Of a stretch of DNA of 39,128 nucleotides, positions 10,741 through 15,178 are shown one piece after another. The DNA is from a bacterium (GTDB lineage Bacteria > 4484-113): positions 1 through 39,128 of the forward strand of contig JAOZQG010000009.1 in assembly GCA_029932365.1 (NCBI GenBank), in the 5' to 3' direction. Position numbers and translations under genes: made by a program. A model generated the notes under the pieces. The model was not told the DNA's origin. It worked only from the letters and a program-made list of their open reading frames with translations, and did not search any database. The first letter of the stretch is position 1; each line of letters starts with the position of its first letter.

Positions 10741-11670
10741 ATGATACTAACGGTAACCTGCAATCCGTGCATAGACAAAAGCTTTCTAGTACGAGGACTC
10801 ACGCCGGAGGCGAAGATGAAAGCGTGGGACGTGCGATACGGTCCCGGCGGGGGTGGAATTAATGTTTCCCGTGTAATTAGGCGATTGGGTGGTGAGACGA
10901 TAGCGTACGGCTTTGCTGGTGGTCATACGGGAGCGGCCCTGCGGGACCTTTTGAACCAGGAGAAGCTTAGACACACCTTAGTAGAGGTTATGCACCCCAC
11001 ACGGATCAATATCACGTTTATGGACGAGGAGGACGGCGCGCAATACGTTTTCAGTTTGCCCGGTGCGCGGGTAGAAGGTTTGGAGTGGAAGCAGCTTATG
11101 GCGTTGATCCGCGGAGTGGACCCGAAGCCCGAGTACCTCGTAATTAGCGGCAGCCTGCCGCCGGGTTTAACCGCGGATGCTTATGAGGAGCTTGCGAAAG
11201 ACGCCCGGCAACGAGGAGTGCAAGTGCTGGTGGATACTTCCGGGGAACCGTTGAGAGCGACACTTAAGCATAAGCCGCTAATAGTTAAGCCAAACCGCCG
11301 CGAACTCGAATCGCTAACCGGCATGGAACTTTCAGGAGCCGATGATGTCCTGAAAGCTTCCCGCGACGTGCTGGAAATGGGACCACAATCGGTAATCGTC
11401 TCGCTGGGACCCGACGGTGCATTAGCGGTCAATGCTGAAAGAGCCTGGCGGGCATCCGCACCCCCTGTTAAGACTGTGAGCAAAGTGGGTGCGGGGGATT
11501 CAATGATGGCGGCGATAGTCCTTAGCCTGCGAAGGGGAAAAACGTTGGCCGAAGCACTGAAGCTGGGCGTGGCGGCGGGAACTGCTGCGACCATTTCACC
11601 GGGCACCGAGCTTTGCCTGCCTAAAGACGTCAATCATCTGTTCCCCAAGGTGGAAGTTACGAGTATTTAG
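10741..11670 (+). CDS. pfkB: PfkB-family hexose kinase (1-phosphofructokinase / Pfk-2-like)
   Basis: TVTCNPCIDKSF, YGPGGGGINVSRVIRRLGG, ISGSLPPGL, VKPNRRELESLTG, VGAGDSMMAAIVLSL. Confidence 0.88.
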   Translation: MILTVTCNPCIDKSFLVRGLTPEAKMKAWDVRYGPGGGGINVSRVIRRLGGETIAYGFAGGHTGAALRDLLNQEKLRHTLVEVMHPTRINITFMDEEDGAQYVFSLPGARVEGLEWKQLMALIRGVDPKPEYLVISGSLPPGLTADAYEELAKDARQRGVQVLVDTSGEPLRATLKHKPLIVKPNRRELESLTGMELSGADDVLKASRDVLEMGPQSVIVSLGPDGALAVNAERAWRASAPPVKTVSKVGAGDSMMAAIVLSLRRGKTLAEALKLGVAAGTAATISPGTELCLPKDVNHLFPKVEVTSI

Positions 11671-11692: not shown

Positions 11693-13018
11693 CTACTTCT
11701 TCTCGCCCAGGTCCACTTGCGCACACACCAGGCCGGTTATAAGCTTGGGGAAAAAATCCGTAGATTTCTGGGGCATCACTTCTCCTCGCCCCGCCACTTC
11801 TCGTATCTGAGACAGCTTTGTGGGATTCATAAGTATTGCGAGCTGATGTCCGCCTTTATCTACGAGCCTAATAGCGCTGTCCGGATGGCGCTCGTAATCA
11901 ATGTTGGCTTTTGCAGCTTGAGCTTCTTTGGTTATTCCGAGTATGTATTCGAGAATAACTTCGTGAAGAATGGCCACGTCCAGCGAACGCCAGGCGTCAG
12001 AGCGCTCAGGCGCCAGTCTGGCAACAATGTCGGCGTTCTTCAATTGCAGGAGCCAGAATTCGCCCTCATAGTAAAGCCCAAAAGCATGAGCGCTTGTATC
12101 CTTCGCCAGCTCGGAGAGAGAAAACAAAGTTGTGTCCTTGTTAGGGCGCTTTTCTACAGCGAAATACTCCTCAAGCTGCTTGAGGAAGCTTTGGATGTCG
12201 AAGCTGGGTAAGCTGTGAATAACCCGGTGAGTTGGCAGCACAACCAGTCCCGGATCGCTCATTCCCACCATCGTTACCATAGCGTTGCGCGGATTCTGGG
12301 TGCTTTCGCCTCCAGCATATTCCTGAAGGCGGTAATTTCGGTAGTTTATGGCGGTTTCGTAGCGGTGGTGGCCGTCGGCAATAAATAGCGGCTTTTCTTC
12401 CATCTCGCGCTGAACTGAAGCAATCGTATCAGGGTCGCTGACCGCCCACATCTTGTGAACCACGTCTTCCTCTTCGTTATGGGCTACCATATCCGGAGAG
12501 CGCTCCGTATGCTTATCCAGCAAACGCATGACCTTATTCTCGTCGTCCGGATAAAGCTGGAATATTTGCCCGAAATGGGTATCGGTATGGATTAGGAGTT
12601 TGAAACGGTCTTCTTTTGGGGCGCTAAGTGTGCGCTCGTGCGGCTTGACCTTGCCGCTGGCGTAATCTTCCAGCTCAACCTGCACGGTCATTCCTTTACG
12701 CACGTAGGATTGGCCGTCCGGAGCAGTGAACTCCTGGTGGTAAACGTAGATTGCGGGCTCCTCGTCCTGGACGAGCACTCCGCTTTCCAGCCACTGCTTC
12801 AGCGTCTCGGCGGCTCGGGTATAGACGTTATTATCTGGAGCATCCTCGGAAGACTCCCGGCCTTTGATGATCCGCACTATGTTGTACTCGCTCGCTTTAT
12901 AATACTTGTCCTGCAACTCAGGTGTAACCCGGTCGTAGGGCAGGGTGGTAACTTGTGAATAGTCTTTAACCTTCTCTTTGTTGAAGTGAGTTCCTCTAAA
13001 CGGGAATATTTTAGCCAT
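11693..13018 (-). CDS. DUF1015 family protein (serine-cluster-associated, function unproven)
   Basis: FPFRGTHFNKEKVKDYSQVTTLPYDRVTPELQDKYYKASEYNIVRIIKG; KPHERTLSAPKEDRFKLL; FIADGHHRYETAINYR; follows the aminotransferase and serA on the same strand. Confidence 0.88.
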   Translation of the reverse strand: MAKIFPFRGTHFNKEKVKDYSQVTTLPYDRVTPELQDKYYKASEYNIVRIIKGRESSEDAPDNNVYTRAAETLKQWLESGVLVQDEEPAIYVYHQEFTAPDGQSYVRKGMTVQVELEDYASGKVKPHERTLSAPKEDRFKLLIHTDTHFGQIFQLYPDDENKVMRLLDKHTERSPDMVAHNEEEDVVHKMWAVSDPDTIASVQREMEEKPLFIADGHHRYETAINYRNYRLQEYAGGESTQNPRNAMVTMVGMSDPGLVVLPTHRVIHSLPSFDIQSFLKQLEEYFAVEKRPNKDTTLFSLSELAKDTSAHAFGLYYEGEFWLLQLKNADIVARLAPERSDAWRSLDVAILHEVILEYILGITKEAQAAKANIDYERHPDSAIRLVDKGGHQLAILMNPTKLSQIREVAGRGEVMPQKSTDFFPKLITGLVCAQVDLGEKK

Positions 13019-13063
13019 TTACAACTCCCCAGCGTATTAGGTTCCCGGCTATTTAGGATAAGG

Positions 13064-13984
13064 CTAACCGGCGAAGTACTGCTGAACGATGTCCACAACC
13101 TCAAAGCCGACGCGGGCCTGCGCCTCTGCCGTCTGCGCGCCGATATGAGGTGTGAGAACGACGTTATCGAAATCGGCGAAGATATGCTCGGTCGCAGGCT
13201 CTTTTTCATAAACATCGAGTCCGGCGCCGGCTATTTCGCCATCTTTAAGGGCTCGGGCCAAAGCCGCTTCGTCCACAATGCCGCCGCGTGCGCAGTCAAC
13301 GATAAAGGCCGAGTTCCTCATCTTCTTGAACTGCTCCACAGTGAACATGTGGTGAGTCTCATTGTTGTGCGGGACGTGGATTGATATGTAGTCGGAGTTC
13401 CCCAGAAGCTCGTCAAATTCAACATCAAAAACGTCCTTCAAGCCGATATCGCGTGCCTTTACGTAAGGATCAAATGCGAGCGCTTTCATCCCCAGGCCAA
13501 TGCACCGCTTTGCGAGCTCCTGCCCGATACGCCCGATGCCGACGATGCCTACCGTCTTGCCCCAAAGCTCCACGCCTTTGAAGCGTTTCTTCTCCCACTT
13601 CATAGCTTTCATACTGGCATCGGCGCCGTGGATTTTGCGCGCGAGCGAGAACATCATGCCAATGGCAAGCTCGGCGACGCTTGCGCTGCTGGCCGCAGGA
13701 GTGTTGCGAACAACGATGCCTTTAGACTCGGCGTAAGGCACATCAATATTATCCAGGCCGACGCCGCCGCGGACAATGAGCTTCAAGTTAGTTCCTGCGT
13801 CAATTACTTCTTTTGTTACCTTGGTCGCGCTGCGGACGACAAGGCATTCGTATTCTGGAACAACCTTCAAAAGCTCGTCAGCGGGAGTGCCCTGGTCGTT
13901 ATGAACAACCTCCAGGCCAGAGATCTCCATCATCTGAGCCGCAGCTTTCGGGTCCATTGGATCGCAGATTAATACTTTCGCCAT
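13064..13984 (-). CDS. serA: D-3-phosphoglycerate dehydrogenase (short form without ACT domain)
   Basis: VRSATKVTKEVIDAGTNLKLIVRGGVGLDNIDVPYAESKGIVVRNTPAASSASVAELAIG; VGIVGIGRIGQELAKR; CARGGIVDEAALARAL; TPHIGAQTAEAQ. Confidence 0.93.
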   Translation of the reverse strand: MAKVLICDPMDPKAAAQMMEISGLEVVHNDQGTPADELLKVVPEYECLVVRSATKVTKEVIDAGTNLKLIVRGGVGLDNIDVPYAESKGIVVRNTPAASSASVAELAIGMMFSLARKIHGADASMKAMKWEKKRFKGVELWGKTVGIVGIGRIGQELAKRCIGLGMKALAFDPYVKARDIGLKDVFDVEFDELLGNSDYISIHVPHNNETHHMFTVEQFKKMRNSAFIVDCARGGIVDEAALARALKDGEIAGAGLDVYEKEPATEHIFADFDNVVLTPHIGAQTAEAQARVGFEVVDIVQQYFAG

Positions 13985-14032
13985 AATGCTCCCTCCTGGG
14001 ATAAAACAACAGCGAGACCGCTGCCTGAATTG

Positions 14033-15178
14033 TTAGCACAGATGCGACATAAAAACTTCCTGGGCGGCCTTTACGCCAACTCCCAGCTCGACATCAGCGC
14101 CGAATTTCTTCATCGCCATTTCAAAGGCGGCAAGCCCCATTATCGTGTCAAAGTAATCTTGGTACCCAATAGTACCGATACGGACAATCTTAGTTTTGTA
14201 ATCGTCCTGCCCGGCAGCCATAAAGATTCCCCACTCGTCGCGCATAAATTTAACGACTTTCGTGGAGTCTATTCCTTCGGGCATCAGGATAGGTGTCAGC
14301 ACGTTGGATGGAAATTTCTTGCTAAGCCGCTCAAAGCCCAGCGCATCGGCGGCGGCGCGTACGGCTTCCCCCTGAATTTCGTGGCGCTTGTGGATGTTGG
14401 GCAATCCCTCTTCCAGCAGCATATCCAGCGACACGTTTAGCTGCTGGAACAGGCTCACATTGCTCGTCCAAGGGTGAGTACGTTTGGCGTCGTTTTTGAC
14501 AGCGGCAACCAGGTCGAAGTAAAAGCCCGTACGGTCGGTCTTCTCCATCTTATCTACAGCGCGGGGCCCCAGAACTATAAAGGCGATGCCCGGCGGCATC
14601 ATGAAGCCCTTCTGAGAACCGCTGATAAGCACATCAATGTCCCAATCGTCCATCGGGCAGGGATGCGCCAGCAATCCGCTTATGGCGTCGACGATGATGA
14701 GCTTGTTGGATGCATGCGCAATCTCGGTGAGCTCCTTGATGGGATTCAGCGCTCCAGAAGACGTTTCGCTGAGCTGCGTGAAAACGCCTACAGCGTCAGG
14801 CGCGTCCTTTAGCGCCTGTTCGAGCTTATCCGGTGTGGAAGCGTCACTCCATTCGTATTTAACCTCGTGCACCTTGCAGCGGTAAGCCTTACCGATTTTC
14901 GTCCAGCGTTCGCCGAACTTACCGCCATTAAAGGTGATAATCGTCTCTCCGGGACTAACGAGGTTTGAGACGGCGGCTTCCATGGCGCCGGAGCCCGTGG
15001 AGTTAAGTGTCAGCACACGCTGTTTGGTTTCAAAAATCGTTTGCAGCTTGACCGCGCATTCTTCGTAAATGTCATAGAACTGGTCCGTGCGATGGTGCAC
15101 CATATCCTTAGCGCCCGCGAGAGCTACGTCCGCAGGCACCATTGTCGGGCCAGGGGTGAACAGATGCAGTTTCTTCAT
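14033..15178 (-). CDS. Class V aminotransferase (alanine-glyoxylate / serine-pyruvate / phosphoserine aminotransferase-like)
   Basis: FTPGPTMVPADVALAGAKDMVHHRTDQFYDIYEE; SGAMEAAVSNLVSPGETIITFNGGKFGERW; PLP-lysine segment DVLISGSQKGFMMPPGIAFI. Confidence 0.92.
   Translation of the reverse strand: MKKLHLFTPGPTMVPADVALAGAKDMVHHRTDQFYDIYEECAVKLQTIFETKQRVLTLNSTGSGAMEAAVSNLVSPGETIITFNGGKFGERWTKIGKAYRCKVHEVKYEWSDASTPDKLEQALKDAPDAVGVFTQLSETSSGALNPIKELTEIAHASNKLIIVDAISGLLAHPCPMDDWDIDVLISGSQKGFMMPPGIAFIVLGPRAVDKMEKTDRTGFYFDLVAAVKNDAKRTHPWTSNVSLFQQLNVSLDMLLEEGLPNIHKRHEIQGEAVRAAADALGFERLSKKFPSNVLTPILMPEGIDSTKVVKFMRDEWGIFMAAGQDDYKTKIVRIGTIGYQDYFDTIMGLAAFEMAMKKFGADVELGVGVKAAQEVFMSHLC

Follow-up and report, generated by a model that had tools for sequence, protein, structure and literature searches.

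Two free serine kinases are the closest described systems. SerK of Thermococcus kodakarensis (TK0378; PDB 5x0b; Pfam ParB_N and SerK_C) is ADP-dependent, and the reaction measured for it is the conversion of serine to phosphoserine. SbnI (PDB 5uje and 6nr6) is the free serine kinase that serves staphyloferrin B biosynthesis. In the study of Makino et al., clear homologues of SerK were not found among bacteria, and serK of Desulfurococcales adjoined serA and an aminotransferase gene (PMC5120207). For the opposite step, from phosphoserine to serine, two enzymes serve as references, namely SerB, a HAD phosphoserine phosphatase (TIGR00338), and PspA, a metal-independent phosphoserine phosphatase with a histidine-phosphatase fold (PDB 4ij5). 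In 450 gut Firmicutes genomes, SerA and SerC were present, and the four phosphoserine phosphatases considered were all absent (PMC9026213). Growth of Clostridium perfringens and Enterococcus faecalis requires no serine, and their SerB candidates are of low confidence only (PMC7311316). Neither GapMind nor the gut-microbiome reconstruction filled this gap, and DUF1015 is named in neither study (PMC7311316, PMC9026213). A search of the open-access literature, with subscription papers and preprints outside its scope, found no paper joining DUF1015 with serine.

The DUF1015 protein considered here resembles SerK in its predicted fold, in the DGHHR motif, in a PHE motif carrying the putative counterpart of the catalytic Glu of SerK (as judged by motif and order), in a C-terminal PxKxT motif and in its neighbourhood of serA and an aminotransferase gene. 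Unlike SerK, it is bacterial, approximately 200 residues longer, approximately 15% identical, unmatched by ParB_N and SerK_C, and complementary to SerB; the direction proposed for it is also opposite to that measured for SerK. It has the fold in common with SbnI, whereas SbnI is encoded in a siderophore cluster, has no serA operon and is approximately 10% identical. With SerB and PspA, only the proposed pathway step would be common: SerB was unrelated by all family and fold searches performed here, and PspA is likewise unrelated.

The operon and its occurrence

The window, i.e., the whole stretch of 39,128 nucleotides that was analysed, contains three genes arranged head to tail in the order aminotransferase, dehydrogenase and DUF1015 (Table 1). 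Examination of the open reading frames with Pfam and NCBIfam confirmed the genes and the ADGHHRYETA motif exactly where the preliminary description had placed them. The short-gap layout that it had reported also stood; the gaps themselves were 48 and 45 bp instead of 46-49 bp. A Shine-Dalgarno-like AGGAGG was found ahead of the aminotransferase gene. The DUF1015 protein is a member of PF06245 (E=4e-94; 315.6 bits against a cut-off of 25.8). The best match of the dehydrogenase was the PGDH model TIGR01327 (E=7.9e-114), with 381 bits against a full-length cut-off of 454 and coverage of model positions 1-302 of 525 only. According to Pfam and NCBIfam, the aminotransferase was closest to AGT/BhcA-type families and not to classical SerC. 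A PfkB-family sugar kinase gene (window positions 10741-11670) is convergent with the DUF1015 gene, with 22 bp between their ends.

Table 1. Positions in the window of the operon genes and of the DUF1015 motif codons
Feature	Positions	Strand	Remarks
Class V aminotransferase (PF00266)	14033-15178	-	381 aa; first operon gene; probable phosphoserine aminotransferase (SerC role)
D-3-phosphoglycerate dehydrogenase (SerA)	13064-13984	-	306 aa; short form without C-terminal domains; TIGR01327
DUF1015 protein (PF06245)	11693-13018	-	441 aa; predicted SerK/SbnI fold; candidate phosphoserine-to-serine enzyme
P126-H127-E128 codons	12635-12643	-	putative counterpart of SerK P28-H29-E30 by motif and order
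ADGHHRYETA codons (residues 214-223)	12350-12379	-	equivalent of SerK IVDGHHRW, the ParB-fold phosphate-binding motif; profile alignment to SerK 64-74
PQKST codons (residues 416-420)	11759-11773	-	equivalent of SerK S219-T223 (SPKTT); profile alignment

The same three genes in the same order were found in three further genomes of the same phylum, and an aminotransferase gene also accompanied serA-DUF1015 in two other loci (L024 and L038). In a non-random set of loci, many of them selected for their resemblance to the window protein or to the Pfam model, 38 of 158 DUF1015 genes had serA as their immediate upstream neighbour in the same orientation; among the other genes of these loci, this was so for 2 of 1270. 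Within the Clostridia subfamily nearest the Listeria protein, this arrangement was observed in 28 of 36 cases. The order serC or aminotransferase gene, serA, DUF1015 recurred in the source phylum, Chloroflexota, Bipolaricaulota, Bacteroidota, Listeria, Enterococcus and Clostridia. The operon exceeds chance association, and the serK neighbourhood of Desulfurococcales may be regarded as an independent parallel to it.

Outside the serA-linked groups, most DUF1015 loci had no adjoining serA. Members of a second Clostridia subfamily were found with hom, thrB and ask, convergent on serA-serC, or alone; operons with the homoserine dehydrogenase, homoserine kinase and aspartate kinase genes occurred in eight loci (for example, L016:3107-7927). 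This points to a role of that subfamily near threonine synthesis. On a Thiodictyon plasmid (L020:2013-7074), the neighbours of a distant DUF1015 gene are cobD, bluB and a gene for cobyrinate diamide synthase; a free threonine kinase is required for cobalamin assembly. PLP cysteine-synthase-like genes adjoin DUF1015 on a Streptomyces plasmid (L021:3436-7179) and in three Poribacteria loci, an arrangement reminiscent of SbnA-SbnI. In six loci of Nitrospira-type genomes, DUF1015 is flanked in conserved order by a polyprenyl synthetase gene before it and a sigma-54 response regulator gene after it. Neither these two recurrent neighbours nor two others, an amidase and a methyltransferase, gave a functional lead.

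COG4198 is a group that we take to be DUF1015. Glycine riboswitches were reported upstream of COG4198 genes in a 2007 metagenome survey (PMC2211319), which is in keeping with serine/glycine metabolism. The Rfam model detected no glycine riboswitch in the window, nor in any of 35 loci, and no known RNA element was detected upstream of the operon. T-boxes found in four loci (L144, L145, L165 and L169) were rejected as a control of DUF1015, none being upstream of it; that of L145 precedes an alanyl-tRNA-synthetase-like gene.

Predicted fold and conserved motifs of DUF1015

The AlphaFold (AF2) prediction for DUF1015 was based on 69 aligned family members, drawn from many bacterial phyla and a small number of archaea, and the model had a mean pLDDT of 95.7 and a pTM of 0.92. 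Comparison of this model with the whole PDB by Foldseek yielded nine chains at E<=1e-3, all of which were SerK (5x0b and mutants), 1vk1, which is the Pyrococcus orthologue of SerK, or SbnI. The best E-value was obtained for 1vk1 (2.7e-9), with 6.5e-8 for SerK 5x0b and 4.8e-5 for SbnI 5uje. A second model, that of a Monoglobus member (L055; 34% identical), retrieved the same nine chains, and human sulfiredoxin was a weak match at rank 33 for this model. With both models, the Foldseek probability to SerK, 1vk1 and SbnI was 1.00, in agreement with the overall SerK fold of a ParB/Srx domain followed by a C-terminal domain. The TM-scores over SerK were moderate (0.5-0.6; 0.60 for 5x0b) because DUF1015 carries approximately 200 extra residues. 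Among the significant PDB matches of either model, there was no ParB structure; a viral structure library gave no match to the DUF1015 model at E<=1e-3, and none of the defence families was matched by DUF1015. Judging from these models, it is almost certain that DUF1015 has the SerK/SbnI fold. The ParB/Srx-type fold anticipated in the preliminary description was thus borne out by nine of nine matches with two models, and the matches to SerK, 1vk1 and SbnI gave no sign of a fold unrelated to ParB/Srx.

A single-sequence search of the PDB with DUF1015 found nothing, and matches were obtained by profile and fold comparison alone. The DUF1015 profile matched only 1vk1 and SerK in the PDB (E=0.0013 for 1vk1), in two collinear blocks corresponding to the DGHHR region and to the C-terminal GE-x-PxKxT region. 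Profile-profile alignment with two SerK sequences gave E=7.9e-5 over 162 columns, with a probability of only 61%. DGHHR was invariant in the DUF1015 alignment and aligned to SerK 69-73; since patterns around DGHHR and PxKxT had been used to collect the relatives, the invariance of these two motifs is partly by construction, whereas that of His127-Glu128 is not. H127 was present in 69 of 69 aligned sequences and E128 in 68 of 69. The window protein has KPHE at this site, and SerK E30, which was mutated in the substrate-complex structures 5x0e and 5x0j, also sits in KPHE. The order of the PHE and DGHHR motifs is the same in both proteins, with 86 residues between them in DUF1015 versus 38 in SerK, and the PHE motifs of the two proteins are putative counterparts.

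Pfam ParB_N and SerK_C, both of which match SerK, did not match DUF1015 even at E=10, and PF06245 was the only Pfam model matched at E<=10. Because ParB_N and SerK_C fail to match, DUF1015 was assigned to a new remote branch and not to SerK. The HAD models of Pfam and NCBIfam (TIGR00338 and PF12710) gave no match either. The best explanation is that DUF1015 is a remote, enlarged branch (approximately 440 versus 242 aa) of the SerK/SbnI free serine kinases with the ParB/Srx fold. The bacterial SerK relationship of DUF1015 emerges by fold or profile comparison. A representative of DUF1015 was included in the test panel of a 2025 survey of the ParB-CTPase fold, the main text of which reports no nucleotide for it (PMC12704722).

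Distribution of SerB and DUF1015

SerB was searched for with the curated model TIGR00338, which detected it in 7 of 14 control genomes and misses some genuine phosphoserine phosphatases (B. subtilis falls below its cut-off). No SerB above the cut-off was found in the source genome (1.94 Mb, 88.5% complete; best score 19.9 bits against a cut-off of 144), in any of eight genomes of the same phylum, in 40 other DUF1015-bearing genomes from many phyla or in 196 Clostridia. DUF1015 was carried by 160 of these Clostridia. Because SerB was absent from all 196, an anticorrelation of SerB and DUF1015 could not be assessed within this class. All 15 Clostridia that had no PGDH-like gene also had no DUF1015 (Fisher p=5e-13, uncorrected for relatedness, several of the genomes being small), and in 21 Clostridia, a PGDH-like gene was present and both SerB and DUF1015 were absent.

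In Actinomycetota, DUF1015 matches at E<=1e-59, a threshold picked after inspection of the list, were found in 8 of 39 genomes with SerB versus 111 of 159 genomes without it (odds ratio 0.11, p=2.8e-8, uncorrected for relatedness). When all DUF1015 matches were counted, the figures were 23 of 39 and 123 of 159, respectively (p=0.025). Two of the three named DUF1015 controls, Bacteroides ihuae and Methanosarcina acetivorans, carried both proteins, so the relation between SerB and DUF1015 is a tendency and not a strict substitution. In four Actinomycetota genomes, the DUF1015 matches lay in frames of 830-945 codons, which may be spurious extensions in GC-rich DNA or fusions.

Proposed reaction and alternatives

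The preliminary description had proposed that DUF1015 acts on phosphoserine and completes the serine pathway. The predicted fold and the absence of SerB agree with this proposal, and the genomic context speaks well for it; the chemistry (phosphatase, reversed kinase or forward kinase), with its substrate, direction and phosphate acceptor, is inferred, and DUF1015 may not be the only phosphoserine-consuming enzyme of this genome. In the phosphorylated route, SerA would oxidise 3-phosphoglycerate, the aminotransferase would then make O-phosphoserine, and DUF1015 would strip the phosphate from it to release serine, the acceptor being a nucleotide (AMP or ADP, in a reversed SerK reaction) or water. 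The putative reaction pocket would comprise His127-Glu128, Asp215-Gly-His-His-Arg219 and Lys418-x-Thr420. The SerK reaction reversed onto AMP is thermodynamically uphill at standard conditions; therefore, the proposed direction would call for a hydrolytic variant or for serine consumption strong enough to pull the reaction.

It is quite probable that DUF1015 acts on serine or phosphoserine. Serine synthesis by the phosphorylated route, with the three genes supplying its enzymes and DUF1015 acting last, is somewhat favoured, and the direction from phosphoserine to serine in this operon is reasonably likely because of the operon logic and the complementarity to SerB. There is about an even chance that DUF1015 fills the gap at the phosphoserine-consuming step in most Clostridia, in Listeria and Enterococcus and in many other phyla, either as a reversed SerK fold with the phosphate recovered on a nucleotide or as a true phosphatase, and that threonine or homoserine is the substrate of sister branches.

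It is possible, albeit at less than even chance, that the serA-linked members act on phosphoserine and that the substrates of the entire family include several free hydroxy-amino acids (serine, threonine and homoserine) or their phosphates. The Clostridia subfamily in hom-thrB-ask operons and the distant plasmid member beside cobD, a threonine-phosphate decarboxylase gene, argue for this breadth. All of this evidence is gene neighbourhood, however, the sole cobD case concerns a member with 26% identity, and SerK was inactive on threonine and homoserine (PMC5120207).

A forward free serine kinase that converts serine to O-phosphoserine appears rather unlikely, whether its product were used in cysteine synthesis, in secondary metabolism or in the assimilation of serine to 3-phosphoglycerate via reversed SerC and SerA. 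Such an activity would match the direction of SerK and SbnI, with which the fold is in common (PMC5120207), and the cysteine-synthase-like neighbours on the Streptomyces plasmid and in Poribacteria. However, it would be redundant for synthesis in an operon where SerA and SerC already yield phosphoserine, it would leave the SerB-less genomes with no last step, and complementarity to SerB would not be expected of a kinase.

The source genome encodes two PF00300 proteins, L010 and L011, scoring 86 and 97 bits against a PspA cut-off of 350, and two generic HAD phosphatases. Of the solved structures, Hydrogenobacter PspA is the closest to L011 (E=4.5e-22). The L011 residue aligned with PspA His85, which is presumably important in PspA, is a Tyr. 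As judged from sequence, these four proteins could act on phosphoserine. It is unlikely that one of them dephosphorylates phosphoserine and that DUF1015 serves the serine operon as a sensor or regulator: L010 and L011 score far below the PspA cut-off, PF00300 proteins are nearly universal and unlinked to serA in the loci examined, and the residues with a putative catalytic role in DUF1015 do not vary between phyla, although SbnI is labelled a bifunctional transcriptional regulator (title of 6nr6) and SerB occurs alongside DUF1015 in Bacteroides and Methanosarcina. A ParB-type DNA-binding or nuclease protein located in the operon by accident is very improbable, since the common ParB/Srx fold and the old ParB-like labels are outweighed by the lack of a significant ParB fold match or ParB_N match and by a serA linkage far above chance.

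Many bacteria seem to have no enzyme that converts phosphoserine to serine, and DUF1015 is a strong candidate for that function. In hundreds of sequenced bacteria, the final reaction of serine synthesis has no assigned enzyme. If the proposed function is correct, the large DUF1015 family would gain a role, many false predictions of serine auxotrophy would vanish, and the SerK type of enzyme would become widespread in bacteria.
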